This document shows positions 54 to 38,641 of a DNA stretch of 42,091 nucleotides, one piece after another (positions within the stretch are counted from its first letter, which is position 1; each line of letters opens with the position of its first letter). Source of the stretch: Syntrophobacter sp. SbD2 (GTDB lineage: Bacteria; Desulfobacterota; Binatia; UBA9968); NCBI GenBank assembly GCA_945889495.1, contig CAMDBU010000032.1, positions 1 to 42,091 on the forward strand, read 5' to 3'. A program made the translations under genes and the position numbers. The notes beneath the pieces were generated by a model, which had not been told where the DNA came from, searched no databases, and saw only the letters and a program-made list of their open reading frames with translations.

Positions 54-218
54 ATGCAATAAACTCTACACGATCTCTTCTTCCTGTCGATCCTCATCGC
101 CTCGGTTACCCACTTCATTCTCGACTTTCACCACGGGCTGCTAGCCAAGGGCGCGAATCGGTTGATTTACTTGCCAAGGCTGGAGTCATTGCGTAGGATC
201 GAAGCGCAAGTTGCGTGA
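54..218 (+). pseudogene. Possible remnant of a small membrane protein gene
   Basis: Reading from ATG 54, codon 3 is TAA, but the same frame stays open afterwards for about 51 codons to TGA 216-218. The peptide has a hydrophobic stretch (LFFLSILIASV) and a basic tail. Its stop lies 2 bases before the ATG of the next gene, a spacing typical of coupled genes, so a small gene that lost codon 3 to a stop (CAA to TAA would suffice) is possible. No ribosome binding site is visible and the family is not recognised. It may equally be chance. The rest of positions 1-214 holds nothing I recognise. Confidence 0.2.
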
Positions 219-220
219 CG

Positions 221-1018
221 ATGAACTATCGAGGGGAAATATTTGCCGCGCTGTTGCTCGGCGCGGTTAGCGCGGCGATGGATGCAACGGCGCAGGATGT
301 TGCCGCCATGGTGCGCATCCCCGCCGGCGCCTTTCTCATGGGTAGCAACAGCGGTCCGGAGGATGAACGGCCGCAGCATCGGGTCGAGGTCGCGGAGTTT
401 TTCATCGACCGAACTAAAGTGACCAACGGGCAATTCGCGCAGTTTCTAAACGCCGTCGGTGCTCTCAGTCCTCAGGGCGAAAAATATTTCGACATCGACG
501 ACAACGACGCCAGAGTGCATCGGCGCGACGGCAAATGGTCGGCCGATGCCGGCTTCGAGAACAATCCGGTGGTAGAAGCGTCCTGGTATGGCGCGTTTGC
601 GTACTGCAAGTTTGTCGGCAAACGTTTGCCCACCGAAGCGGAGTGGGAGAAGGCGGCGCGCGGCACCGACGGCCGGAAATATCCGTGGGGCGACGAGCCG
701 CCCGATCGCACTCGCGCTCACTTCGGCGCCGGCTGGAACGATCTGAAACCGGTGGGCAGCTTTCCTAAAGGCGCCAGTCCCTACGGCCTACTCGATGCCG
801 CGGGCAATGGCTGGGAGTGGGTGAGCAGCGCCTATCAATCTTATCCCTACAACCCAAAAGACGGTAGAGAAGACTTGGCCAAGGATGTGGTGCGTGGCAC
901 GCGCGGCGGCGGTCACGACGTTCGCGCCGACGAACTGACGACCACCCACCGCGGGCGAAACGTATCGCGCAACCCGCGCGGCGGCCATCACAATATTTCT
1001 TTTCGCTGTGCACGCTGA
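221..1018 (+). CDS. Secreted FGE-sulfatase (SUMF1) fold protein
   Basis: 265 residues from ATG 221 (an in-frame GTG lies at 215). The N-terminus has a hydrophobic, signal-peptide-like stretch ending near ATAQD. The rest matches the formylglycine-generating-enzyme/EgtB C-terminal fold: IPAGAFLMGS, ERPQHRVEVAEFFID, RLPTEAEWEKAARG, YPWGDE, GNGWEWVSS (usually GNVWEW) and a final FRCAR. The catalytic cysteine pair of true formylglycine-generating enzymes is not seen; the region between the RGGG motif and the end has no cysteine except the one in FRCAR. There is no DinB domain as in EgtB. It is therefore probably a periplasmic or surface protein of unknown activity using this fold. A LysE exporter gene follows after 14 bases. 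Confidence 0.85.
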   Translation: MNYRGEIFAALLLGAVSAAMDATAQDVAAMVRIPAGAFLMGSNSGPEDERPQHRVEVAEFFIDRTKVTNGQFAQFLNAVGALSPQGEKYFDIDDNDARVHRRDGKWSADAGFENNPVVEASWYGAFAYCKFVGKRLPTEAEWEKAARGTDGRKYPWGDEPPDRTRAHFGAGWNDLKPVGSFPKGASPYGLLDAAGNGWEWVSSAYQSYPYNPKDGREDLAKDVVRGTRGGGHDVRADELTTTHRGRNVSRNPRGGHHNISFRCAR

Positions 1019-1032
1019 TTGTTAACTCCCGC

Positions 1033-1677
1033 ATGCCGATCTTCTACATCATTCAAGGTATCCTCATCGGCCTGGTGGTCGCCGTGCCGGTGGGACCGTT
1101 GGGTTTGTTGTGCATCAACCGCTCGTTGATATTGGGCGCGGGCGCTGGGTTAGCGTCTGGCATGGGCGTCGCTAGCGCCGATGCCCTGGCCGCTGGTATC
1201 GCCGCCCTGGGGATATCGCTGGTGTCGGATTTCTTGCTCGCGCATCAATTCACCCTGCGTCTGGTCGGCGGGATTTTTCTCTGCATTCTCGGCTATCGGA
1301 TCTTTCGCACCGAGCCGGCGGCCAAGCTGCCGACGATCAGGGGCAATGGTTTGCTCAGCGCCTACGCGACGACCTTTTTACTGACCTTCTCCAATCCAGT
1401 GACGATTATCTCGTTTGTCGCCATCTACGCCGGCTGGCATGTGCCGAGTCTGCATGGCCACTACCTGGCGGCGGCGCTCTTGACCTTCGGCGTCTTCATC
1501 GGTTCGGGGCTCTGGTGGATTATCTTGTTCGCCGGCCTAACGTTGTTTCGTTTGAATATCAGCAGCGGTTTTCTTTCCTGGGTGCACCGGGTGTCGGGTG
1601 TGGTGATCGTCGGCTTCGGCGTCGCCGTGCTGTTGAGCCTGTCGCCGTTGAAGCAAACTTTGAACATGAATTTTTAA
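1033..1677 (+). CDS. LysE family amino acid/metabolite exporter
   Basis: 214 residues from ATG 1033. The N-terminus FYIIQGILIGLVVAVPVGPL carries the LysE/RhtB signature (gly- and pro-rich first helix), followed by about five more hydrophobic segments; FLLTFSNPVTIISFVAIYAG is the typical fourth-helix motif with the conserved N-P. Family members export amino acids or related small molecules across the inner membrane. It lies 14 bases after the FGE-fold gene and 5 bases before the desaturase gene, so the three probably form one transcript. The substrate cannot be told from sequence. Confidence 0.85.
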   Translation: MPIFYIIQGILIGLVVAVPVGPLGLLCINRSLILGAGAGLASGMGVASADALAAGIAALGISLVSDFLLAHQFTLRLVGGIFLCILGYRIFRTEPAAKLPTIRGNGLLSAYATTFLLTFSNPVTIISFVAIYAGWHVPSLHGHYLAAALLTFGVFIGSGLWWIILFAGLTLFRLNISSGFLSWVHRVSGVVIVGFGVAVLLSLSPLKQTLNMNF

Positions 1678-1682
1678 CCGCC

Positions 1683-2654
1683 ATGCGCCAAGCCGATGCC
1701 ATCATGAACCGCGCCAGCGCCACGCCGGAGATCGTCAACGGCGCGTTGGCGCTATTTTATCTTGGCGTAAATTTGTTCCAGTTCTTCGTCTTGCCGCTCT
1801 GCTTGTTGCCCGCCGACCCGCGCTGGGGTTGGCTGCTCTTGCCGTTGGCGCTACTCACCAATCCCTTCTGGAGTTTGATTCATGAGGCGATCCACGATCT
1901 GCTTCACTCAAATAAATCCGTGAATTCGTTCGTCGGCCGGCTCCTGGCGGTCCTGTTCGGTTCGCCGTTTCGGATTCTCCGGCTGAGCCATCTGCTGCAC
2001 CATAAGCTCAATCGCATGCCGGCCGAGGGCACGGAGTATTTCGACCGCGACAAAACCACCAAGGCTGCGGCCGCGCCGGGATATTTCTTTCAGATACTGC
2101 TCGGCTTGTATTTAGTCGAAGTCATTAGCGCGCTCTGTTTTTTTCTGCCGCGCCGTTGGTTGGATGGATTCCGCGCGCGCTATTTGCCGGCGCACAGCGT
2201 CAGCGCCATGCTGATGCAAAATTGGTTGGGTGCTGAGTCGCTCCGCGAGATTCGCCGCGACGGCGCGTTAGTCCTGCTCTGGCTGGGGTCGGCGTACTAC
2301 CTGTACGGCGCCCATTGGCCGCTGCTACTCGGCGCGCTGGCGGCGCGCGGGGTGCTGATCTCGTTTCTCGACAACGTTTATCACTACGAGACGCCGGTGA
2401 GCGATGTCTTCTTCGCCAAAAACTTAAAACTGGCGAAGCCGTTGGCCAAGCTGCTGTTGAATTTCAACCTGCACGGCATTCATCATATCAATCCGGCGAT
2501 CTCCTGGATCGATCTACCGAGAGCGTTCGAGGCCCAGGCGGGGAAATATCATGGCAGCTATTTTGCCACCGCGCTGGGCCAACTGCGTGGCCCGATCGCA
2601 CTGCAAGACCTGCCCCAGGGTGCGCCCGTGCTGCGGGTCCGTCCCTATCTGTGA
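1683..2654 (+). CDS. Membrane fatty acid desaturase family protein
   Basis: 323 residues if started at ATG 1683, 5 bases after the exporter stop; ATG 1704 is an alternative. The open frame extends upstream inside lysE, but that part is a shadow. Three histidine boxes of the di-iron desaturase/hydroxylase family are present: HEAIH, HLLHH and HGIHH (in NLHGIHHINP), interspersed with hydrophobic segments such as FQFFVLPLCLLP. Such enzymes insert double bonds or hydroxyl groups into lipids or related chains in the inner membrane. Its last 10 bases overlap, tail to tail, with the end of the methyltransferase gene on the other strand. Exact substrate unknown. Confidence 0.85.
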   Translation: MRQADAIMNRASATPEIVNGALALFYLGVNLFQFFVLPLCLLPADPRWGWLLLPLALLTNPFWSLIHEAIHDLLHSNKSVNSFVGRLLAVLFGSPFRILRLSHLLHHKLNRMPAEGTEYFDRDKTTKAAAAPGYFFQILLGLYLVEVISALCFFLPRRWLDGFRARYLPAHSVSAMLMQNWLGAESLREIRRDGALVLLWLGSAYYLYGAHWPLLLGALAARGVLISFLDNVYHYETPVSDVFFAKNLKLAKPLAKLLLNFNLHGIHHINPAISWIDLPRAFEAQAGKYHGSYFATALGQLRGPIALQDLPQGAPVLRVRPYL

Positions 2655-3679
2655 GCTTGCTTACGCAGTAGTAGGACGGAAAACCAATCTTGTGGGTCGC
2701 TGTAGTGGGCCACCGGTTGCAGGCCGATAAAGCTCAGCTGCTCCTGCAAACGGTTGGCTTCGAACTTGCGGCTGATCTCGACCAGGATGCGCTCGTCGCG
2801 CTGCCAGATGAATTCTGCCTTGGCGCTGGGGAAGCGGATGGTTTGATTTTCCTTCGCCACCGCGTACATCTCGATCTGCTGCCACTCGGGGTTGAACCAT
2901 GAGTGGTAGCGCATCTTCTCGCGGGCGAAATTGCCGCCGAGCAGCCGGTTGATGTTCTGGAAGACGTTCAAGATAAACGCCGCGGTGATGCCGCGGCTGT
3001 CGTTGTAGGCGGGTTGCAAAATATTTTTGTCTTTGACCCGGTCGGCGCCGAGCAGCAGGTAATCGTTGGGGCCCATGGCTTCGGCGAGGGCGCGGAAGAA
3101 GCGCGGGAAGTCGGTCTGGTTGAAGTTGCCGATGGTGCTGCCGAGAAAGACAAACAGGGTCGGCAGATTTTTGTCGACGGCGGCGAAGCCGGCGTCGTAG
3201 CGCGCGTGGATGCCGTGAAATTCTATTTGCGGAAAATCCCGCCGCACCGCGGCCTGCGACGCGATCAGGCCGGCGGCGCTGACGTCGATGGGCGCGAACA
3301 GGCAGTGGCCGCGCTGGCGCAGCTGTTCGGTGAGCAGATGGATGGTTTTTTTACTGTAACCGGCGCCGAGTTCGACGATGCATTCCACGGCAGCCGCGGC
3401 GATGATATTCTTCGCCTGGGCTTCGAGGATGCTGTTCTCGGTGCGGGTTAAATAATACTCCGGCAGCTCGCAGATCTCCTCGAATAGCTCCGAGCCCTGG
3501 TCGTCGTACAGATGATAGGCTTCGAGCCAGCGCGGTTGATCCCATAGGGTGGTCAAGATCGACAAGGTCGGCACCGCGTCGAGATCGGCGCCGCGCCGGG
3601 ACCAGATACCGTCATGTTGGGAGGTCCAGTGCGGGCTTTGATCGGCGGCGAAAATAGTCGGCAGTGTTTGCTTTTTCAT
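2645..3679 (-). CDS. egtD: EgtD-type L-histidine N-alpha-methyltransferase
   Basis: 344 residues from ATG 3679 (MKKQTLP). The open frame continues upstream, but that part runs through a dispersed repeat and is not coding. The family (dimethylhistidine N-methyltransferase) trimethylates histidine to hercynine with SAM, the first step of ergothioneine synthesis. Motifs: YDDQGSELFEEI (58-69), LPEYYLTRTE (72-81), SAM-binding ELGAGYSKKT (103-112), FLGSTIGNFN (178-187), QPAYNDSRGITAAF (222-235), VEISRKFE (300-307). Asn185, Tyr225, Glu301 and Ser303 appear to match the histidine-contacting residues known from mycobacterial EgtD; this is my alignment from memory. No EgtB with a DinB domain is in the window. 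Divergent from the egtUV-like transporter genes. Confidence 0.88.
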   Translation of the reverse strand: MKKQTLPTIFAADQSPHWTSQHDGIWSRRGADLDAVPTLSILTTLWDQPRWLEAYHLYDDQGSELFEEICELPEYYLTRTENSILEAQAKNIIAAAAVECIVELGAGYSKKTIHLLTEQLRQRGHCLFAPIDVSAAGLIASQAAVRRDFPQIEFHGIHARYDAGFAAVDKNLPTLFVFLGSTIGNFNQTDFPRFFRALAEAMGPNDYLLLGADRVKDKNILQPAYNDSRGITAAFILNVFQNINRLLGGNFAREKMRYHSWFNPEWQQIEMYAVAKENQTIRFPSAKAEFIWQRDERILVEISRKFEANRLQEQLSFIGLQPVAHYSDPQDWFSVLLLRKQAHR

Positions 3680-3749
3680 GGACGGGAAGACTATAAAAGA
3701 AATTGACTGTGGATGCGACTGGGGCAAGAGGAATTCAGGACAACCCAAG

Positions 3750-3841
3750 ATTCCGTCATGCCGGTGAAGACCGGCATTCAGGTTGGGCTTGGGCGGTCGC
3801 AGCGAAAACCTGGATTCCCGCCTGCGCGGGAATGACGGAAT
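3750..3841. repeat. Dispersed palindromic repeat, two-hairpin unit
   Basis: Two hairpins, one with CCGGtgaagaCCGG and one with ATTCCCGCctgcGCGGGAAT, form a larger inverted repeat: the left end ATTCCGTCAT mirrors the right end ATGACGGAAT. This is the very common repeat that translates as FPRRRES or VIPAQAGIQ when read through. It fills the intergenic region between egtD and the ATPase gene and creates false N-terminal extensions of both. A one-hairpin relative lies at 13194-13229. Confidence 0.85.
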
Positions 3842-3842
3842 A

Positions 3843-4634
3843 GTGAACCCGAGATTTTTCGAATCTATAAACAGCCTCGAAACCGCCATTGAATTTCGCG
3901 ATGTCAGCTTTGTCTTGCCGAGCGGCAAGACGCTGCTGGCTCATCTCAATTTGCAGGTCGGCCGCGGCGAGACCTTGGTGCTGCTTGGGCGCAGCGGCTC
4001 GGGCAAGACCACGACCATGAAATTGATCAACCGCTTGATCGATCCTAGCGCCGGCCAAGTGATCGTCGACGGCAAGCCGACGGTGGAGTGGGACGCGATC
4101 CAACTGCGCCGGCGCATCGGCTATGTGATCCAGGAGATCGGCTTGTTTCCCCATCTGACCATCGAGCAAAATATCGGCGTGGTGCCGCGGCTCGAAGGCT
4201 GGGAGCCTGATCGCGTCGCCGCGCGCGCGCGCCAGTTATTGAATCTGGTCGGCCTCGATGCCGACCGCTTCGCCGATCGCTTTCCGCGCGAGCTGTCGGG
4301 CGGCCAGCGCCAACGGGTTGGCGTGGCGCGCGCGTTGGCCGCCGATCCGCCGGTGATTCTCTTGGACGAACCCTTCGGCGCCCTCGACCCGATCACCCGG
4401 CGCGACATTCAACAGGAGTTCAAGAGTCTGCAGCAGGAGTTGGGCAAGACCATGGTGTTTGTCACCCATGACATCGCCGAGGCGTTCGTCCTCGGTAGCC
4501 GCATCGGCCTGCTCAAGGATGGCGAAATGGTTTTGCTCGGCGTCCCCGCCGAGCTGCTCGAATCCTCCCACCCGGAAGCGCGCGCCTTTGCCGCCTGCTT
4601 TCACGACGGCCAGGCGATCGGGAGGCCGGCGTGA
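3843..4634 (+). CDS. egtV: ABC transporter ATPase, EgtV/OpuCA-like
   Basis: 263 residues from GTG 3843, the first plausible start after the repeat; the frame stays open upstream through the repeat. Walker A GRSGSGKT (49-56), signature LSGGQRQR (151-158), Walker B VILLDEP (171-177) and the H-loop in VTHD (209). The family is the osmoprotectant/betaine group (OpuCA, OsmV, EgtV). There is no CBS domain pair after the ATPase, unlike OpuCA, and like EgtV of ergothioneine importers. The stop overlaps the start of the permease/binding protein by 4 bases (GTGA), so the two are translated together. Symbol is by analogy; a betaine or choline importer is the alternative. Confidence 0.8.
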   Translation: MNPRFFESINSLETAIEFRDVSFVLPSGKTLLAHLNLQVGRGETLVLLGRSGSGKTTTMKLINRLIDPSAGQVIVDGKPTVEWDAIQLRRRIGYVIQEIGLFPHLTIEQNIGVVPRLEGWEPDRVAARARQLLNLVGLDADRFADRFPRELSGGQRQRVGVARALAADPPVILLDEPFGALDPITRRDIQQEFKSLQQELGKTMVFVTHDIAEAFVLGSRIGLLKDGEMVLLGVPAELLESSHPEARAFAACFHDGQAIGRPA

Positions 4635-6196
4635 GCTTGATCGAGTTTTTGCTCAACAATCGCCGTGAGTTCGGCGAGCTCGTGTTGGAACATTTATTCC
4701 TGGTGATCATGTCCACCGGCATCGCCGTGCTGATCGGCGTGCCCTTGGGCATTTTGCTCACCCGCCGGCCGGCGCTGAGCAAGCCGATTCTCGGCTTCGC
4801 CAACATCATGCAGACGGTGCCGAGCCTGGCGCTGTTCGGCTTTCTGATCCCGCTGAATATTTATTTGTTCCAGTTCAAAATCGTCGGCGGTATCGGCGCG
4901 CGCACGGCGATCGTCGCGCTGGTGCTCTATTCGCTGTTGCCGATCATCCGCAATACTTTTACCGGTATCAGCAACGTCGACCCGGCGATCCGCGACGCCG
5001 GCCGCGGCATGGGGATGACCGACCGGCAGTTGCTTCTGCAAGTCGAGCTGCCGCTGGCGCTAGGCGTGATTCTCGCCGGTGTGCGCGTCGCCACCGTGAT
5101 CTGCGTCGGCACCGCGACCATCGCCGCGGCCATCGATGCCGGCGGCTTGGGGCGCTATATCTTTCGCGGCCTGCGCGCCAACGACAACACGTTAATCCTC
5201 GCCGGCGCGGTGCCGGCGGCGCTGATCGCCATCGGCGCGGATTTGCTGCTCGGCTATTTCGAGAAAACCATTCAGTTGGGCGTGATGGTGCGCGGCAAGG
5301 GGAAAAAACTGCTCTGGTCCAGTGGTCTGGTACTGTTGGCGATTGTCGGCGGGATTTATCTGTTCAGCGGCAAGAGCGGCGGCCGCATCGCCGTCGGGTC
5401 AAAAGACTTCACCGAGCAGGTGATTCTCGGCGAGATCGTTGCCCAGGCGATCGAAGCCAAGACTGGAGCGCAAGTCACGCGCCGCTTCGATCTCGGCGGC
5501 AATCTCGCCCATGAGGCGCTCCTCGGCGGCGAGATCGATATCTACGTCGAGTACAGCGGCACGGGACTGCTGGCGATCTTGAAAGAGAAGCCTTTGGCCG
5601 ATCCGCAGGAAGTGTTGCAGCGTGTGCGCTCGGAGTACGCCAAGCGCTTCAAATTCGAATGGACCGAGCCGCTGGGCTTCAACAATACTTTCGCCATACT
5701 CGTGCGCGGCGACGATGCCAAGAAGTTCGGTTTGAAGACGGTCAGCGATGCGGCGAAGATTTCTCATCAGTGGCGCGCCGGCTTCGGCCAGGACTTCATG
5801 TCGCGCGCCGACGGCTATCCAGGATTTTCCAAAGCCTACGGACTGCACTTCGAAGCTACCCGCGAAATGGATTTGTCGCTGACCTATCGGGCGCTGGCGG
5901 AGAATCAAGTCGATCTCATCGCCGGCAACTCCACCGACGGTCTGATCAGCCGCTATGGCTTGTTTCAACTAGAAGACGACCGCCACTACTTCCCGCCCTA
6001 CGACGCCGTGCCGGTGGTGCGCCAGGCGACCCTGGAAAAATATCCAGCGCTGCGCGGCGTGTTGAAAGAGCTGGGCGGCATTCTTACCGTCGACGAAATG
6101 CGCAAGCTCAATTATGCCGTCGACGGCGAGAAGCGGCTGGCCAAGGATGTGGCGCGGGAGTTTTTGGAGCGTAGAGGTTTGCTTGGCCGGAAGTGA
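4631..6196 (+). CDS. egtU: Fused ABC permease and substrate-binding protein, EgtU-like
   Basis: 521 residues from GTG 4631. Residues 1-220 are a permease with the coupling loop RDAGRGMGMTDRQLLLQVELP (about 121-141). A further helix (228-246) leads into a periplasmic binding domain of the OpuAC/ProX type from about 251 (VGSKDFTEQVILGEI; GGEIDIYVEYSGTG; AENQVDLIAGNSTDGLISRY). Permease and binding domain in one chain is the layout of EgtU (ergothioneine), also seen in some bile or betaine importers. Size is close to known EgtU proteins. The neighbouring divergent egtD makes a trimethylated histidine betaine a plausible ligand. Binding-pocket residues were not verified. A 3' copy of this gene lies at 6999-7302. 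Confidence 0.8.
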   Translation: MSLIEFLLNNRREFGELVLEHLFLVIMSTGIAVLIGVPLGILLTRRPALSKPILGFANIMQTVPSLALFGFLIPLNIYLFQFKIVGGIGARTAIVALVLYSLLPIIRNTFTGISNVDPAIRDAGRGMGMTDRQLLLQVELPLALGVILAGVRVATVICVGTATIAAAIDAGGLGRYIFRGLRANDNTLILAGAVPAALIAIGADLLLGYFEKTIQLGVMVRGKGKKLLWSSGLVLLAIVGGIYLFSGKSGGRIAVGSKDFTEQVILGEIVAQAIEAKTGAQVTRRFDLGGNLAHEALLGGEIDIYVEYSGTGLLAILKEKPLADPQEVLQRVRSEYAKRFKFEWTEPLGFNNTFAILVRGDDAKKFGLKTVSDAAKISHQWRAGFGQDFMSRADGYPGFSKAYGLHFEATREMDLSLTYRALAENQVDLIAGNSTDGLISRYGLFQLEDDRHYFPPYDAVPVVRQATLEKYPALRGVLKELGGILTVDEMRKLNYAVDGEKRLAKDVAREFLERRGLLGRK

Positions 6197-6323: not shown

Positions 6324-6766
6324 GTGATTCCTCCGTTTAACGAAGAGGGATTGCTGCCCGATGGCATTCACGACTGCACGATGGACGAAGCGGCGGAGCG
6401 CTTCGGCGTGTTTCAGAGCAGCGACCGGCGTCCGCAATTATGGGCGAGGTTTGCTGAGTTCATGCGTGAAGCGATGGCATGCCGATTTATCGAGGCCGTG
6501 CTGGTAGACGGGAGTTTTGTTACCGCTATTTCTAACCCTAATGATATCGACCTTGTTCTGGTAGTGTCTGCAAGCTATGATTTTTCCGCAGATTCGGCGC
6601 CCATGTCTATAATCTGCTGGCCCAGCGCAGGGTGCGGAGACGGTTCGGCTTTGATATAGTGGTGGTGAAAAACGGCAGCGACAATCTGGCACAATCCGTT
6701 GCCTTCTTTAAGCAGGTCAAACAACGGCCCGGCGCAATGAAGGGAATTTTGAGGATAAAGCTATGA
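6324..6766 (+). pseudogene. Frameshifted nucleotidyltransferase-fold gene
   Basis: Starts at GTG 6324 with IPPFNEEGLLPDGIH. The nucleotidyltransferase signature is GSFVTAISNPNDIDLVLV: G63-S64 and D74-x-D76. In the original frame the protein becomes nonsense after about SASYDFSADS (near 6590) and stops at 6659. The other half continues in the frame one base earlier: YNLLAQRRVRRRFGFDIVVV from 6608, then FFKQVKQRP, ending at TGA 6764-6766. One missing base between about 6585 and 6607 explains this. The stop overlaps the start of the next gene (ATGA). MNT-type proteins of this kind often work with a small partner as defence or toxin-antitoxin modules. Either a real mutation or a sequencing/assembly error. 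Confidence 0.75.
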
Positions 6767-6978
6767 TCGAGACTAGCGAGCAACTTTATCAAGCCATCGA
6801 ACAAATGGGCCGGATGCAGCGCGTCCTTGAGTCCTATCGCAATGAAATTTTGACTCAGAACCCGTGTAACTTCGCCATGCTCGCAGAGGGCCCGCTGGAA
6901 CAACTCCGGCAATTACAACAACAGATTGGCGAGTATTGCCAGCGCTTCGAAGCTAACGGAAACACTGCAAACACCTGA
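6763..6978 (+). CDS. Small protein, partner of the nucleotidyltransferase gene
   Basis: 71 residues from ATG 6763, overlapping the reconstructed end of the nucleotidyltransferase frame by 4 bases, the usual sign of a coupled pair. The sequence is rich in Gln, Glu and Leu with predicted helices (EQLYQAIEQMGRMQRVLESYR; PLEQLRQLQQQIGEY) and a possible short coiled coil. No domain recognised. By position it could be the neutralising or structural partner of the nucleotidyltransferase. It ends about 20 bases before the egtU fragment begins. Confidence 0.6.
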   Translation: MIETSEQLYQAIEQMGRMQRVLESYRNEILTQNPCNFAMLAEGPLEQLRQLQQQIGEYCQRFEANGNTANT

Positions 6979-6998
6979 TGCTCGGTTATCCGTGCCTG

Positions 6999-7302
6999 TT
7001 GAGCGCTGGTGGAACACCAAGTGGATAACATCGCCGGTAATTCCACCGATGGGCTGATCAGCTGCTACGGCCTGTTTCAGCTGGAGGACGACCGGAGATA
7101 TTTCCCGCCCTACGACGCTGTGCCGGTGGTGCGCCAAGCGACCCTGGAAAAATATCCGGCGCTACGCGGCGTGTTGAAAGAGTTGGGTAGCGTTCTCACC
7201 GTCGATGAGATGCGCGAGCTCAACTTTGCCGTCGACGGCGAAAAGCGCCAAGCCAAGGATGTCGCGCGGGAGTTTCTCGTTGCCAAGGGTATTTTAAAGT
7301 GA
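6999..7302 (+). pseudogene. 3' fragment of a second egtU-like gene
   Basis: From about 6999 the sequence reads ALVEHQVDNIAGNSTDGL and continues to the end as a close match to the last 98 or so residues of EgtU at 5892-6196 (GLFQLEDDR; YFPPYDAVPVVRQATLEKYP; KDVAREFL). Most base differences fall in third codon positions and the amino acid changes are mild (Y to F, I to V, K to E). The paralogue therefore probably evolved as a working gene before its front part was lost. A stop codon (TGA) precedes the homologous part. A GTG at 7009 could start a 97-residue product, but this lacks most of the binding domain and the whole permease. Confidence 0.88.
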
Positions 7303-7312
7303 GTTCCATGGT

Positions 7313-7338
7313 GTCGGACTACGCTGTGCGCATCCGAC
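7313..7338. repeat. Palindromic repeat, diverged copy of 6207-6232
   Basis: GTCGGA and TCCGAC flank an ACGCTGTGCGCA-like loop, 10 bases after the stop of the egtU fragment, matching the position of the repeat behind intact egtU. Confidence 0.6.
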
Positions 7339-7462
7339 CTAACCGTTGATTGATTCGATAGCGTTGGCCGCACGGTTACAATTTGCGGTTTTTTCGCGTC
7401 ATGTTGTTGAATCTTTGGCGCTGCAGTTGTTACATGAAATTTATCAGGCTTTGCGGAGGTGC

Positions 7463-8518
7463 ATGATGGCGAAGGTCGCAGGTTTCATCGATGCGGACGG
7501 TCATGTGGTCGAAAGCGACGCCGAGTTGCTCGATTTTCTGCCGAAGCCGTATCGCGGCCGCTCGGATCTGCTCGCTTTTCCGTTTTTTCCGACACTCGAT
7601 GGTTTTCATCGCCAGGCGCGCCGCGTAGCCGACGGCAAAGGGCGCTACATCGCCAAAGGGAGCTTGGTGGAATGGCAACAGTTTCTCGATGAAGACCAGA
7701 TCGCTTGGTCGGTGCTTTATCCGACTGCCGGCCTCACCTTCGGTTTGATCCGCGACCAGGACTGGGCTTGCGCGGTCGCCACCGGCTACAATAATTATCT
7801 TTACGAGACTTTCACCAAGCCGGAAGCCCGGCTTAAGGGTATGGCGCTGATCCCGCTGCAGTCGATTCCCGATGCGGTAAAAGAATTGCAGCGTGCCGTC
7901 AAAGAGCTCGGCTTTGTCGGCGCGGTGCTGCCGGCGGTGGGGCTGCGTCAACCATTGGGCGATGAAAAATACTTTCCGGTCTACGAAGCCGCGGAAAAGC
8001 TCGGCGCGTTACTGACCGTGCACGCCGCGCCGACCCAGGGGATCGGTGTCGATAGTTTCGACCGCTTGATCGAAGTGCGCACGCTGAGCCATGGCTTCGG
8101 CCAGATGGTGCAGATGACCAGCATGATCTACCAAGGCGTCTTCGACCGCTTCCCCAAACTCAAGATCGCCTACGCCGAAGCCGGCTGCGGCTGGGTGCCG
8201 TATCTGCTCGAACGCATGGACATGGAGTATGAGCACCGTAACACCCAGGTGCCGCAATGCAAAAAATTACCTTCCGAACATCTCAAGAGCGGACGGGTGT
8301 TTATTCATTGCGAACTGGAAGACCGTGCGATCCCACAGGTTGCCCAGCTGCTGCGTGACGATATCTTGTTTTGCGCCAGCGATTTTCCCCATGAGCCGCG
8401 CAGCGAATTTCGCGAGAATGTCGAACGGTTCATGGCGCGGCAAGATATTGGCGCGGACACCAAGCGAAAAATGTGCTTCGAAAATCCCAAGCGGATGTAT
8501 CCACTGGCGTTGCGGTGA
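7463..8518 (+). CDS. Amidohydrolase family (TIM-barrel) metal-dependent hydrolase
   Basis: About 351 residues. Start at ATG 7463 or 7466; GCGGAGG at 7453-7459 fits 7466 slightly better. The frame stays open upstream, without support. The protein belongs to the amidohydrolase-2 group (ACMSD/decarboxylase-like): it begins with DADGHVVESD (the place of the first metal site), has LTVHAAPT, LKIAYAEAGCGWVPYLLERMD, and CASDFPHEP with the late aspartate. Such enzymes hydrolyse or decarboxylate cyclic or aromatic acids; the substrate is unknown. An MFS transporter and an ABC binding protein follow on the same strand, which hints at a catabolic cluster. Confidence 0.85.
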   Translation: MMAKVAGFIDADGHVVESDAELLDFLPKPYRGRSDLLAFPFFPTLDGFHRQARRVADGKGRYIAKGSLVEWQQFLDEDQIAWSVLYPTAGLTFGLIRDQDWACAVATGYNNYLYETFTKPEARLKGMALIPLQSIPDAVKELQRAVKELGFVGAVLPAVGLRQPLGDEKYFPVYEAAEKLGALLTVHAAPTQGIGVDSFDRLIEVRTLSHGFGQMVQMTSMIYQGVFDRFPKLKIAYAEAGCGWVPYLLERMDMEYEHRNTQVPQCKKLPSEHLKSGRVFIHCELEDRAIPQVAQLLRDDILFCASDFPHEPRSEFRENVERFMARQDIGADTKRKMCFENPKRMYPLALR

Positions 8519-8563
8519 TTCACACCTATTCGCGACGCGACGGACCGCGCGTTGGGTTCCGGA

Positions 8564-8590
8564 TAGGGGCGAAAATTGTTTTGCCCCTAC
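8564..8590. repeat. Palindromic repeat (TAGGGGC ... GCCCCTA)
   Basis: TAGGGGCgAAAA and TTTTgCCCCTA form a hairpin just before the MFS gene. A second member of the family (GGGCGAAA ... TTTCGCCC) lies at 28433-28452. Confidence 0.65.
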
Positions 8591-8596
8591 AGCTCG

Positions 8597-9817
8597 ATGA
8601 ACGATTTGAAAACTACCGGTGCTTTTAGCGCGCTTCGTTACCCCGACTATTTTTGGTTTTGGTCGAGCTATTTCGTATCCAACGTCGGTTCCTGGATGCA
8701 GAGCATCGCCATGGGCTGGCTGCTGTTCGAATTGACCGCGTCACCGCTTTATCTCGGACTATTCAGTTCTCTGCGCATGGTGATGTTGCTGAGTTTTTTC
8801 ATCATCGGCGGGATTCTGTCCGACCGCATCGACCGGCGCAGAGCGATGCTATGGATACAGTTTATCGCCGCCGGCACTTCGCTGATTCTCGCGCTGTTGG
8901 TATCCACTCATGCGATCCAAGTCTGGCATATCTTCGTGCTCGGCGCGGTCACCTCGACCACCTGGGCCTTCGAGCAGCCGGTGCGCCAGGCGTTGTTACC
9001 GCAGCTGGTGCCGCGCGATGTTCTGGTCAACGCCCTGGCGCTCAATGCTGTGACCTGGAACGGTGCCGGTTTGCTGGGGCCGAGTTTGGTGGGGATCTCC
9101 GTCGGTACCATCGGCATCGATGGCTGCTTCTACGTCAACGTCGTCAGTTACCTGGCGGTGGTGGCGGCGCTGATCCGGCTGCGCGTGCCGGCCAACGTTC
9201 AAGAGCCGGGACGCGGCACGGTGGTGCAAAGTCTGCTAGGCGGCTTTCGCTACGTGCGCGGCGAACCGGTGATCTTTACGTTTCTCGTGGTGTCGGCGAT
9301 TTTTAATATCTTCGGCCGATCCTACGTGACGCTGCTCCCTGTGTTTGCCAAGGATGTTTTGCATGTCGGGGCTTCCGGCTTTGGCTTTCTCGCCGCTGGA
9401 CCGGGGCTGGGAACCATCTTTGGTTCGCTCACCTTGGCAAGCTTGGGGAGAGTGGAAGCCAAGCGTTGGCTGATGGTCTCCATGCTTGTGGCTTTTGCGG
9501 TTGTCCTGTGCGGCTTCGCCGTGGGGCGTAACTTCTCCATTGCCGTTGCGCTCTTGGTTGTCATCGGCGCCCTGAGCACGGTATTTGAGACACTGCTCAG
9601 TACGTCGATTCAATTGCGCGTGGAGGAATCGTTTCGCGGCCGGGTGTCGGGCTTCTACGGTTTGACCGGCGGTGGCTTGCGCGAGTTTGGCGGTATGCAG
9701 GCGGGCTTCGTCGCCGAGTGGAGCAGCGCGCCGACGGCGATCGTTGCCGGCGCGCTGGTGCTCGCCGTGGTCGGTTACATGTTTCTCGGCGCCCGCCTCA
9801 AGCGCAGAGCGAGTTAG
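8597..9817 (+). CDS. MFS transporter, EntS/MFS_3-like
   Basis: 406 residues from ATG 8597 (MNDLKTTGAFSALRYPDYFW); the open frame back to 8576 runs through a repeat. The first segment FWFWSSYFVSNVGSWMQSIA is typical of the enterobactin-exporter-like MFS group, with the loop motif GGILSDRIDRRRAM after helix 2. About 10-12 hydrophobic segments follow and the chain ends with a short basic tail. These proteins are proton-driven exporters in the inner membrane. Its cargo cannot be predicted; the neighbouring amidohydrolase and binding protein suggest a small organic molecule. Confidence 0.88.
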   Translation: MNDLKTTGAFSALRYPDYFWFWSSYFVSNVGSWMQSIAMGWLLFELTASPLYLGLFSSLRMVMLLSFFIIGGILSDRIDRRRAMLWIQFIAAGTSLILALLVSTHAIQVWHIFVLGAVTSTTWAFEQPVRQALLPQLVPRDVLVNALALNAVTWNGAGLLGPSLVGISVGTIGIDGCFYVNVVSYLAVVAALIRLRVPANVQEPGRGTVVQSLLGGFRYVRGEPVIFTFLVVSAIFNIFGRSYVTLLPVFAKDVLHVGASGFGFLAAGPGLGTIFGSLTLASLGRVEAKRWLMVSMLVAFAVVLCGFAVGRNFSIAVALLVVIGALSTVFETLLSTSIQLRVEESFRGRVSGFYGLTGGGLREFGGMQAGFVAEWSSAPTAIVAGALVLAVVGYMFLGARLKRRAS

Positions 9818-34917: not shown

Positions 34918-36690
34918 CTAGCCGTGGTTGCGCCGGTCACAGATGGCGTCGATGAGAGCGGGTTTGCCCTGTTTGACCTGCTCAATGGCGCGCTTCAATG
35001 CCGCCTGGAGATCGTCAGGGTTTTCGATTGGGCCTTCAGCGTACCAGCCCATGGAGCGGGCCAGGCCGGCGAAGTCGGGATCGGGACCGTAGAGATCCAT
35101 GCCGAGATAGGCTCGGGCGGGATCGGTGCCGCGGGTGCGCGCCAAGACCAACTGATGGTTCCAGTCGTTGTAGTAGGCGCGGTTGTTGAACATGACCACC
35201 AGCATGGGAATCTGATACTTGGCGGCGACCCATAGGGCGCCGGCGTCGAACATCAAATCGCCGTCCGGTTGGAGATCGACGACTAAGCGGCCGGTGCCTT
35301 TGTTGGCGAGAGCCACGCCCAATGACAAACCGATCTGCGTGCCGGTGCCGAGTTCTCTACCGCCATGGCAGTAGGGGCGGTCGAAGTCCCAGAGCTTTTT
35401 GCCCCAAGAGCCGAGATCGCCGGCGGTGAGCACCCAGTCTTCGCCCTTGATTGCTTGCCAGACCTCGGAGGCCAGACGCGGCACGGTCATCGGTTTTTGA
35501 TCCCAATGCTCTTGTGCTTGTTTGGCCCACTTGGCGCGCATTTCGCCGTGGCGTTTGCCGATGGCTTCGGCGCGCTTGGCGATTTTCTCCGGCAGGCCGG
35601 GAATCTTGGCGATGCGTTCTTTCAACAGTTTGGTCAGCGCCGGCGCGGCGCCGACCACGTCGGCGATCATGCGCTGCTGGGCGTAGTAGGGGCGCGCGTA
35701 GTCCATCGACCACTTGCTGGTTTCGATATCGGTGAAGCCAATGTCGATCCAGGTGGCGCCGGCGGCGACTTTGCTGACCACGGTGCGGGTGGCGATATCG
35801 CGCACATGGGAGGGCTTTTCAAAATCGGCGATGTCGAGGGTCAAGACGACATCGACGCCCTCGTAGCAGCCATCGGGATCCATGGTTAGGTTCAGCGGAT
35901 GATTGGTCGGGAAATTCAAACGCGAACCGACATCCCATACCGATGCGCCGAGGGTTTCGGCGAGATCGATGACATGCTGCCAACCATGGGGTGGGCGGGC
36001 GGCGAAGTCGGCGATGATCGCGACGCGATTGGCGGCGGCGAGCGTGTCGGCCGCTTTGGCGAGCGCGATCGGATCGGCGGCCGGCGCTGTCGGCATTTCC
36101 ACTGAGCCGGCCGGCGGCATCTCCACGTCATGGTCCAGTTCGGCTTCCTGCAAGCCGGCGTCGTAGCACATATAGATCGGACCCTGGCGCGCTGTCATCA
36201 TGATCGAGTAGGCGCGCGCGAAGGCGCCGGGCACGCCGTCGACGGTGGACGGCTGATAGTCCCACTTGACGAAATTACGAATCGCTTCGCCCTGGACGTT
36301 GGCGGTGTGAATCCAGTCGATGAACGGCCGGCGCTTGGGTTCGGCCAGCGGCCCGGTGGCGCCCATGATAAACACCGGCGCGCGGTCGAGATAGGCGTAG
36401 TAAATGCCCATGGGCGCGTGCAGCAGACCGACCAGGTTGTGGACGATGGCGATCATCGGCTTGCCCTTGGCGCGGGCGTAGCCATGGGCGATCTGCACGG
36501 CGATCTTTTCATGCTGGCAGGTCAGCATCGGCGGATCGTTCTCGCCGTAGTTGACCAGCGAGTCGTGCAAGCCGCGGTAGCTGGCGCCGGGATTGAGCGC
36601 GATGTACTCGAATTTATATTTTTTCACCATGTCGACGATGACGTCGGACTGCCAACGCTTCTCGGACTTCTTAATTGTCGAATCTGCCAT
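34918..36690 (-). CDS. Thiamine-diphosphate-dependent enzyme 1 (acetolactate-synthase-like)
   Basis: 590 residues from ATG 36690, with TAGGAGGAC ahead. Three-domain ThDP fold of the acetolactate synthase/benzoylformate decarboxylase group: the activating glutamate is Glu61 in QHEKIAVQIAHGYA, and the C-terminal ThDP/metal motif is PDGDLMFDAGALW ... FNNRAYY. Such enzymes split or join 2-keto acids. Strongly similar to the next gene over its whole length (shared ALNPGASYRGLHDSLVNYGE). Last gene before the operon terminator. Substrate unknown. Confidence 0.9.
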   Translation of the reverse strand: MADSTIKKSEKRWQSDVIVDMVKKYKFEYIALNPGASYRGLHDSLVNYGENDPPMLTCQHEKIAVQIAHGYARAKGKPMIAIVHNLVGLLHAPMGIYYAYLDRAPVFIMGATGPLAEPKRRPFIDWIHTANVQGEAIRNFVKWDYQPSTVDGVPGAFARAYSIMMTARQGPIYMCYDAGLQEAELDHDVEMPPAGSVEMPTAPAADPIALAKAADTLAAANRVAIIADFAARPPHGWQHVIDLAETLGASVWDVGSRLNFPTNHPLNLTMDPDGCYEGVDVVLTLDIADFEKPSHVRDIATRTVVSKVAAGATWIDIGFTDIETSKWSMDYARPYYAQQRMIADVVGAAPALTKLLKERIAKIPGLPEKIAKRAEAIGKRHGEMRAKWAKQAQEHWDQKPMTVPRLASEVWQAIKGEDWVLTAGDLGSWGKKLWDFDRPYCHGGRELGTGTQIGLSLGVALANKGTGRLVVDLQPDGDLMFDAGALWVAAKYQIPMLVVMFNNRAYYNDWNHQLVLARTRGTDPARAYLGMDLYGPDPDFAGLARSMGWYAEGPIENPDDLQAALKRAIEQVKQGKPALIDAICDRRNHG

Positions 36691-36719
36691 GCAGATGTCC
36701 TCCTAGATTCAAAGATTGT

Positions 36720-36861
36720 TTAACCACAAAGAGCACAAAGATCACATAATAGAAAATCATTAATCGGAAGGTTAACCGCAAAGAGCGCTAAGGTTCCAAC
36801 GCTATATGGGCCTAGTCTAGGCCCAACCCAATTTTGTGCCCTTTGTGCTCTTTGTGGTTAA
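36720..36861. repeat. Long inverted repeat TTAACCACAAAG ... CTTTGTGGTTAA
   Basis: Perfect 21-base arms at 36720-36740 and 36841-36861, with an inner partial copy (GGTTAACCGCAAAGAGCGC at 36771-36789) and a small palindrome (GGGCCTAGTCTAGGCCC at 36808-36824). It fills the gap between the two ThDP enzyme genes. Same family as 15317-15391. Confidence 0.85.
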
Positions 36862-36871
36862 TTCTCTTCTC

Positions 36872-38641
36872 TTACGCATTCTCGCCGCGGCGCCAGACCA
36901 CCGCGTCGACCAGCGCCGGTTTGCCGGCTTTGACTTGGGCGATGGCGCGCTTCAAGGCTGGGCCGACTTCGGCCGGGTCTTCGATGACGCCTTCGGCGTA
37001 CCAGCCGATGCCCTTGGCGATATGGGCGAAGTCGGGCGGCGGACCTTCCAGGTCCATGCCGATGTAAGCGCGCTGGGGGTCGGTGCCGCGCTGGTGCGCC
37101 ATGTGAATTTGATGCGCCCAGTCGTTGTAGTAGGCGCGGTTGTTGTACATCAAGATTAACATCGGGATGTTGTACTTGATCGGCATCCACAGGGCGCCCA
37201 AGTCGAACATCAGATCGCCGTCGGGTTGAATGTCGACCACCAGCTTGCCGGTGCCTTTGTAGGCGAGGGCGGCGCCGATCGACATGCCGATCTGCGTGCC
37301 GGTGCCGAGCTCGCGGCCCAAGTGGCGGTAGGGTTTGTCGAAATCCCAAACCTTGTGCGTCCATTCTTTCAGAGTGTTCGCCGTCAGCACCCAGTCTTCG
37401 TCTTTGATCACCTGCCAGGCTTCATGGGCCAGGCGCGCTTCGGTCATCGGCCGTTCGTCCCACTGCGCTTTGACTTGGTCCTGCCACTTTTGCCACTGAC
37501 GGTCATGCCGTTCGCCGATGGCTTTTTTGCGCTCGGCGATGCGGCTGACGAGCGATTTATTGCCGTCGACGCGCTTTTTCACCGCGGCGGTGAGCGCCGG
37601 AATCGACAGCGCGCTGTCGCCCAACACGCGGTGATCCCAGTTGTGATGCTTATTGTAATCGGTCGCCCACTTGCTGATCTCGATATCGGCGAAGCCGATG
37701 TCGATCCATTTGCAGTCGCCGGTGGTCATGACCTGGACTTCGCGGGTTTGAGAATTCAACTTATGCGAGCCGCGGGTCCAGTCGACGACGTCGAGCGCCG
37801 TGACGAGATCGACGCCGTCAAACGCATCGTTGTGGAAGCTGACGGACAATGGATGCTTGTTGGGAAATCCCAACCGCTTGTTGATGTCGTACACCGACGC
37901 GCCGACGGTCTCGGCGAGTTCGACAGTCGACTGAAAACCCATCGGCATGCGCGCCGCGTACTCGGTCAAGAGCAATGGATTTTTGGCTGCCACTAACATG
38001 TCGGCGGCGTGATCGATGACCGACTGCTCGGGAGCGACCCGGGACGGCACTTTGATATGAAAATTTGGCACCGGCACATCTTCGGTCAACTTGGCTTCCT
38101 GCATGGCCGAGTCGTAAACCATGTAGACCGGGCCTTGAGGTTCGCTCATCATGATCGAGTAAGCGCGGGCAAAAGAATCCGGCACGCCGTGAATGCTGCC
38201 CGGCTGGTAGTCCCATTTGGTGAATCCGCGCACCACATCGCCCTGGGCAAAGGCGGTGTGAATCCAGTCGATGAACGGCCGGCGCAGCTTCTCGTCCATC
38301 GGTCCGGTGGCGCCGATGATGAACACCGGCGAGCGATCGATATAGGCGTAGTAGATGCCCATGGGCGCGTGCAACAGACCGACGACATTATGAACAATCG
38401 CGATCATCGGCTTGCCGGTGGCTTTGGCGTAGCCATGGGCGATCTGTACGGCGATCTTCTCATGGTTGCACAGCAGCATCTCCGGCTTGTTCTCGCCGTA
38501 GTTGACCAGCGAGTCATGCAGGCCGCGGTAGCTGGCACCGGGATTGAGCGCGATGTAAGGAAAGTCGAACTGCTTGATCAGATCGACGATGATGTCGGAC
38601 TGCCAACGTTCGGTGGATTTTTTGATCTTATCGTCTGCCAT
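36872..38641 (-). CDS. Thiamine-diphosphate-dependent enzyme 2 (acetolactate-synthase-like)
   Basis: 589 residues from ATG 38641, with GGAGGAG before the start. Paralogue of ThDP enzyme 1: Glu61 in NHEKIAVQIAHGYA, RRPFIDWIHTAFAQGDVV, and PDGDLMFDLGALWMPIKYN ... YNNRAYYNDW at the ThDP site. Both copies keep the catalytic glutamate and the metal motif, so both may be active, as alternatives or as a heteromer. It comes 106 bases after livF in the same direction. Confidence 0.9.
   Translation of the reverse strand: MADDKIKKSTERWQSDIIVDLIKQFDFPYIALNPGASYRGLHDSLVNYGENKPEMLLCNHEKIAVQIAHGYAKATGKPMIAIVHNVVGLLHAPMGIYYAYIDRSPVFIIGATGPMDEKLRRPFIDWIHTAFAQGDVVRGFTKWDYQPGSIHGVPDSFARAYSIMMSEPQGPVYMVYDSAMQEAKLTEDVPVPNFHIKVPSRVAPEQSVIDHAADMLVAAKNPLLLTEYAARMPMGFQSTVELAETVGASVYDINKRLGFPNKHPLSVSFHNDAFDGVDLVTALDVVDWTRGSHKLNSQTREVQVMTTGDCKWIDIGFADIEISKWATDYNKHHNWDHRVLGDSALSIPALTAAVKKRVDGNKSLVSRIAERKKAIGERHDRQWQKWQDQVKAQWDERPMTEARLAHEAWQVIKDEDWVLTANTLKEWTHKVWDFDKPYRHLGRELGTGTQIGMSIGAALAYKGTGKLVVDIQPDGDLMFDLGALWMPIKYNIPMLILMYNNRAYYNDWAHQIHMAHQRGTDPQRAYIGMDLEGPPPDFAHIAKGIGWYAEGVIEDPAEVGPALKRAIAQVKAGKPALVDAVVWRRGENA

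Follow-up and report, generated by a model that had tools for sequence, protein, structure and literature searches.

The window analyzed here is a complete contig (C32, 42,091 bases) of the Syntrophobacter sp. SbD2 draft genome (class Binatia; 5.64 Mb, 95.6% complete). It carries a gene for the histidine methyltransferase EgtD back to back with the genes of an ATP-binding cassette (ABC) importer. The new element, as judged from sequence, is an importer of a distinct type that adjoins hercynine synthesis in a lineage carrying putative selenoneine genes. We consider it probable that hercynine made by EgtD feeds SenA for selenoneine and that the importer takes up a trimethyl-histidine betaine. 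We infer all of these reactions, and the ligand; the direct basis is the genes themselves, their family scores, the EgtD pocket, binding-site residues, and linkage in Binatia and Cyanobacteria. The locus comprises:

2645-3679, minus strand: egtD, predicted L-histidine N-alpha-methyltransferase (hercynine synthesis); TIGR03438, pocket residues, Protein Data Bank (PDB) EgtD chains, single copy
3750-3841, no strand: imperfect inverted repeat between egtD and the ATPase gene; 35-nt arms, 77% complementary
about 3843-4634, plus strand: ABC importer ATPase, CBS-free; ABC_tran match, PF00005, 125.6 bits
4631-6196, plus strand: fused permease (N-terminal) and substrate-binding protein (SBP; C-terminal, about 5381-6196) of the Asn-cage type; PF00528, PF04069, residues, tree

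The gap between egtD and the ATPase gene is about 160 bases and holds the inverted repeat, the core of which has one further copy in the window, with 3 mismatches. For comparison, 58 genomes (own included) were searched for SenA, EgtD, OpuAC, and SenB, and distances were computed. We divided this sample into the window's family (f1, 25 genomes), a sister family (f3, 9 genomes), and 24 other genomes. Several relative loci apparently coincide with contigs of these genomes and were left uncounted a second time in the distance table.

Predicted hercynine synthesis and the divergent importer

By family score and residues, the gene at 2645-3679 is a true EgtD whose histidine pocket is complete, and it is predicted to methylate histidine. 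Its product of 344 amino acids (aa) scores 302.8 bits against the TIGR03438 equivalog model (cut-off 290.9) and 313.9 bits against PF10017, for which it is the sole match genome-wide, and it matches PDB EgtD chains with E about 2e-49. Identity to the Mycobacterium smegmatis protein is limited (105 of 293 aligned residues), but all ten tested pocket positions are the same (Y39, F47, Y56, G161, T163, N166, Y206, M252, E282, and S284). The first-pass annotation had named this gene from EgtD motifs and had named loss of the histidine pocket in an alignment as a refuting result; score and pocket bear the naming out. We take Gly161 and Met252 to be pocket positions. The roles of eight of the ten positions are named in the available part of PMC8593015. 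At position 141, M. smegmatis has Asp, and the window protein and most of its family's relatives have Arg. The nearest named EgtD relatives (59-77% identical) come from metagenome genomes labelled Deltaproteobacteria bacterium or Candidatus Binatia bacterium.

The importer shares its overall layout with a known ergothioneine system. The ATPase, for which we chose the GTG at 3843 as the start, has weak AAA matches besides ABC_tran, and no CBS domain was matched at E 0.01. Its best NCBIfam model is the ProV subfamily (280.5 bits, under the cut-off of 326.6). Permease (73.4 bits) and SBP (208.1 bits) domains share one frame, which has a 4-base overlap with the end of the ATPase gene. Both the divergent, CBS-free ATPase and the overlapping fused gene had been recognized in the first-pass annotation. 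Its further comparison, to the ergothioneine importer EgtUV, is right for the layout, with ATPase and fused permease/SBP as in EgtUBC, and wrong for the binding protein, whose residues and tree position speak against EgtU.

We compared the SBP with EgtU at positions taken from PMC9732360. The window protein keeps K242, T296, N339, R379, D381, and Y443, and it departs from EgtU at six positions (G244F, F293Y, Y337F, Y341F, E375D, and Y419N); the aromatic cage of EgtU (F293, Y341, Y419, and Y443) reads Y, F, N, Y. The T274 and T275 columns went unused because of a register error, the EgtUC row reading S and F at these sites. That row, PDB 9o5f, also departs from 7txk at two aligned positions (243 and 274). 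F at 341 with N at 419 is common to the 18 distinct f1 SBPs and to those of G047 and G054, such that the cage Tyr is replaced by Asn in 18 out of 18 distinct f1 sequences. A second SBP of G014 (L082) is without this pair.

In a tree of 43 rows, which excluded an SBP fragment at 7003, the window SBP falls in a clade of 21 (18 from f1, two from family f10, and one Synechocystis plasmid protein) with support of 100/98. None of these 21 rows was found to have the EgtU letters at G244, F293, or Y337. EgtU forms a clade apart (support 100/100; three rows, namely PDB 9o5f, a Listeria protein, and a Liquorilactobacillus protein), and OpuB/OpuC and ProX are placed elsewhere. Deep forks in this tree are unsure, with long branches for L021 and AfProX and ten rows of deviating composition. 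We rejected EgtU as the identity of the SBP based on the three absent hallmarks (G244, F293, and Y337), the separate clade, and Asn at a cage Tyr. Nor does the SBP group with the named OpuB/OpuC and ProX osmoprotectant proteins in the tree, where the ProX branch is long and the deep forks unsure. A phylogeny of the binding domain against the EgtU, OpuC, and ProX families had been proposed earlier as a check, and it placed the SBP with none of them.

Known relatives show both likeness and difference. EgtUABC of Streptococcus pneumoniae and other Firmicutes, as described in the available text of PMC9732360, shares the ATPase, the fused permease/SBP, the SBP superfamily, and the six kept residues; the window importer differs at the remaining positions and in its clade, and it sits beside hercynine synthesis. 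The same source, in the part available, gives EgtU as nearly exclusive to Firmicutes. The Opu/ProX importers (OpuB, OpuC, and AfProX) belong to the same superfamily, and F244, Y293, and F337 of the window are as in AfProX, but the window SBP has lost two of four cage tyrosines and lies in a separate clade. We regard the importer as a good candidate for uptake of an ergothioneine-like compound. A different arrangement was seen in a Phycisphaerales locus (L021), where genes for an ATPase, a fused transporter with the SBP first, an FGE protein, and EgtD all lie on one strand; its SBP is the one with EgtUC as best PDB matches, yet it has F, Y, and F at the EgtU hallmark positions.

Putative selenoneine genes and a GH84 partner

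From family scores, the genome encodes a selenoneine pathway (SenA, SenB, and SelD), with selenoneine as the predicted product. The EgtB model matched seven stretches genome-wide, none above cut-off. Two of these belong to one 465-aa protein that scores 479.9 as SenA (cut-off 420) and has DinB_2 and FGE domains, with the HX3HXE motif as HEGMHAE. SenB (413.3, cut-off 300) follows directly on the same strand, with 138 bases between matches. It reads EGSSNV where the available part of PMC10891094 names EGGAHV; a badly framed pattern matched 3 of 22 rows. SelD scores 377.2 (cut-off 125) and lies on a different contig from SenA and SenB. Its gene has one in-frame TGA, read in the context SAG-U-AAKLGPG; some SelD proteins carry selenocysteine at the active site. 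Compared with the sen cluster of Variovorax paradoxus (SenA, SenB, and SenC), as given in PMC10891094 and PMC9814287, the likeness is an adjacent SenA and SenB above cut-off together with SelD. The differences are the separate contig of SelD, a GH84 gene that adjoins SenA, and, in relatives, a cluster joined by EgtD and the importer.

A second DinB/FGE protein is encoded on another contig (C29). It has DinB_2 and FGE domains and the motif HEYMHQE, and it stays under the cut-offs for EgtB (221 vs 360), OvoA (257.1 vs 400), and SenA (220.4 vs 420). Homologues with 43-47% identity adjoin EgtD in loci L140-L142 (G039, G046, and G052). The first-pass annotation had suggested that the cell might make hercynine only, or take up ergothioneine and related betaines, and such a limit does not hold, with SenA, SenB, SelD, and the C29 enzyme encoded elsewhere in the genome. 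Its statement that no EgtB with a DinB domain is present in the window stands: the sole match of this contig to the EgtB model is an FGE protein at 215-1018, in which no DinB domain and no HX3HXE motif were found. We rejected this protein as EgtB, since it has the FGE domain alone and no iron motif. Locus L040 carries, at 6909-9406, a DinB/FGE sulfoxide-synthase-like protein and then a PhnD-like binding protein whose match to a putative family of selenate-binding proteins is below cut-off; G020 (L167) has the same pair.

The GH84 gene beside SenA (L041 6441-7583) matches the NAGidase Pfam family with 273.4 bits (cut-off 25) and has an Asp pair, presumably catalytic, in LFDDI. Across the 34 genomes of f1 and f3, GH84 was found in 23, all within the 28 that have SenA, and at E 1e-10 each of these genomes had a single copy. 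The distance to SenA is 0.2-2.9 kb in 22 of the 23; in G006, the gene sits at an end of the contig that carries EgtD. The Asp pair is present in 22 of the 23 sequences, and the remaining one (G003, a two-piece match) is uncovered at that site. Five f1/f3 genomes have SenA without GH84 (G004, G011, G013, G021, and G022). Outside these families, GH84 occurs without SenA in G038, G041, G045, and G051, and SenA without GH84 in G047 and G054.

O-GlcNAcases can cleave thio-linked GlcNAc. Because GH84 accompanies SenA, and because SenB of V. paradoxus prefers UDP-GlcNAc (PMC10891094, available part), these data suggest that GH84 may free selenoneine from a GlcNAc carrier or conjugate. Alternatively, GH84 could recycle cell-wall sugars together with an AmpG-like permease, which scores below its family cut-off and is often encoded beyond SenB. 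In our literature search, no paper joining selenoneine with an acetylglucosaminidase was found.

In the pathway we propose, EgtD would trimethylate histidine to hercynine, SenB would combine selenophosphate (from SelD) with a UDP-sugar to give a selenosugar, and SenA would join hercynine to this selenosugar to yield selenoneine, with GH84 perhaps performing its release. The second DinB/FGE enzyme may also take hercynine, for ergothioneine. The divergent importer would take up or recapture a trimethyl-histidine betaine (ergothioneine, selenoneine, or hercynine), and the cell could thus both make and salvage it. A fuller version is tentative, and somewhat unlikely in all its parts: a Binatia selenoneine locus of a new form, in which EgtD would supply hercynine, SenB and SenA would attach Se-GlcNAc, a dedicated GH84 would remove the sugar, and a new clade of fused importers, shared with some cyanobacterial ergothioneine loci, would recover selenoneine or ergothioneine.

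Linkage in Binatia and Cyanobacteria

The EgtD-SBP layout exceeds chance, since the two genes are divergent and no more than 5 kb apart in 15 of the 18 f1 genomes that have both. EgtD alone was found in 20 f1 genomes. In the three exceptions (G006, G016, and G024), separate contigs carry EgtD and the SBP; two of these genomes (G006 and G016) retain the divergent ATPase next to EgtD. SenA was found in 21 f1 genomes (18 above cut-off; fragments only in G004, G011, and G022), and SenB in 21, adjoining SenA in 21 of 21. EgtD and SenA share a contig in eight f1 genomes, on the same strand and 1.5-11.7 kb apart; in one of these eight, G017, SenA is a fragment at the contig end. G014 has a compact order, with SenB-SenA-GH84-EgtD followed by a divergent ATPase-permease/SBP pair on the opposite strand. 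Among the nine f3 genomes, EgtD was found in eight and SenA in seven, with both on one contig in four, at 14-23 kb.

In the other 24 genomes, EgtD was found in 15, EgtD with an SBP in 10, and the two within 5 kb in four (G040, G047, G053, and G054). In G040, a permease/SBP, an ATPase, an EgtB-like gene (335.4, under 360), and EgtC (230.3, cut-off 218.65) lie opposite EgtD; its SBP is of another type, with the usual Tyr cage kept. In G047 and G054, an Asn-cage SBP lies about 4 kb from an EgtD that is fused to EgtB. Family scores for this fusion are from G054, where both parts are above cut-off.

In 100 cyanobacterial relatives of Nostoc sp. FACHB-152, we examined the same association. Close SBPs, with 39-58% identity and E of 1e-50 or lower, were found in 74, and EgtD in 97 (94 above cut-off). 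Because EgtD is near-universal there, only linkage was used; plain co-occurrence was set aside as evidence, as all 74 SBP genomes have EgtD, but so do 97 out of 100. The 78 SBP rows, among which low-identity rows (39-45%: G127, G138, G146, and G152) were retained, comprised 19 permease-fused and 59 not fused, a distinction we set at an open frame of 450 aa. The fused SBP lies within 10 kb of EgtD in seven of 19 rows (1.6-7.7 kb between matches, convergent), compared with none of the 59 split rows, and an EgtB-like gene adjoins EgtD in seven of seven linked cases. By random placement, about 0.4% per genome would be expected, a figure that gives no strict probability here, as the seven linked genomes are related.

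Binding-site residues were tabulated for 36 cyanobacterial rows, which represent 32 distinct genes (four appear twice); of 20 regions, L219, L221, and L225 were excluded by a text filter. Asn at 419 is present in 30 of the 32 distinct genes (34 of 36 rows) and Phe at 341 in 26 (27 of 36 rows). All seven linked SBPs have Asn at 419, and six have Phe at 341. The fused SBP form travels with hercynine chemistry in this second phylum, with EgtB replacing SenA there, and its linkage to egtB-egtD supports a hercynine-family ligand. The earlier idea that EgtD and the importer act on one compound family is strengthened by this conserved tie and appears right in theme, with the ligand itself a prediction. 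Six of the seven linked cyanobacterial regions (L211 and L213-L217) also encode, in the interval that separates EgtD/EgtB from the fused importer, a small conserved protein of about 165 aa (PGQESVWDYPRP).

Alternative readings, neighboring genes, and significance

Several observations weigh against a trimethyl-histidine betaine importer coupled to selenoneine synthesis. In the window's own genome and in G001, SenA and SenB are on a contig other than that of EgtD. No SBP was found near EgtD in the nine f3 genomes, and the eight f3 SBP loci that were compared with the window SBP gave no match to it at E 1e-8. Neither SenA nor SenB was found in G020, a genome with both EgtD and the importer. The seven linked cyanobacterial genomes are kin rather than seven independent events, and 71 of the 78 cyanobacterial SBP rows are not within 10 kb of EgtD, many being on other contigs, so some cyanobacterial members of this SBP type may carry another ligand. 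Finally, because the EgtU hallmarks are absent and two of four cage tyrosines are altered, to Phe and Asn, binding of a quaternary ammonium by the SBP is not assured.

The importer could instead be an osmoprotectant or choline/betaine transporter, whose place beside egtD is old but unrelated to hercynine, or which merely supplies methyl donors. The nearest named families are of the glycine betaine/choline type, and in the PDB the SBP matches engineered nicotine/acetylcholine sensors best (E 3e-67), followed by OpuC and OpuB (3e-58 and 4e-54), all of which outrank EgtUC (8e-50). Also consistent with this explanation are the EgtU hallmark positions, which read F, Y, F like those of the glycine betaine protein ProX, and the location of most cyanobacterial relatives away from EgtD. 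However, the SBP groups with neither OpuB/OpuC nor ProX, it has Asn at a cage Tyr position that ProX, OpuB, OpuC, and EgtU all keep, and the EgtD linkage recurs in Binatia and Cyanobacteria. We regard an osmoprotectant role as unlikely.

A further possibility, compatible with our preferred interpretation, is that hercynine goes mainly to ergothioneine via the C29 enzyme rather than to selenoneine. The domains and motif of that protein, its homologues beside EgtD, and two genomes (G020 and G023) with EgtD and a C29-type protein in which no SenA was found are consistent with this route. SenA and SenB pass their cut-offs, however, while the C29 protein passes none and is not near EgtD in its own genome, and we find such a main route doubtful. 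Least probable, in our view, is a ligand outside both the usual osmoprotectants and the hercynine derivatives, with quaternary-amine binding lost and the importer only co-regulated with egtD: the cage Asn of nearly all f1 and cyanobacterial sequences would agree with it, but the remainder of the site is conserved (K, N339, R379, D381, and Y443) and the neighbors suggest no other substrate.

Three further genes, at 215-2654, are common neighbors in relatives:

215-1018, plus strand: FGE-sulfatase-domain protein, no DinB, not EgtB; PF03781 only, 177.7 bits; neighbor conserved in several relatives
1033-1677, plus strand: LysE-type exporter, common neighbor in relatives; PF01810
1515-2654, plus strand: fatty-acid-desaturase-type protein, common neighbor in relatives; PF00487, true start probably past 1515

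Downstream, a DUF6932 gene (6324-6659), a small open reading frame (ORF), and then a C-terminal SBP fragment lie between the importer and an amidohydrolase. The fragment has 84% DNA identity to the main SBP across 281 bases, and in G014 the amidohydrolase follows directly after the importer; the stretch at 6324-7302 looks like an insertion or duplication scar. At 34918-38641, two adjacent same-strand ORFs of about 590 aa are alike by eye and resemble thiamine-diphosphate enzymes. A tRNA search of three regions found none, with no bearing on the finding.

In the available text of PMC9732360, the ligands of EgtU relatives and the response of EgtU to selenoneine were left untested, and no Binatota or Binatia were among the matches listed in our search of the ergothioneine and selenoneine literature. 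The Binatia importer, kept next to hercynine synthesis and having a related fused form next to egtB-egtD in some Cyanobacteria, is a testable candidate for the system by which producers import ergothioneine or selenoneine, and its cage differs from that of EgtU. Likewise, the association of GH84 with SenA makes enzymatic removal of the sugar during selenoneine synthesis a testable idea. Together with these candidates, the finding places putative selenoneine genes in an uncultured lineage.

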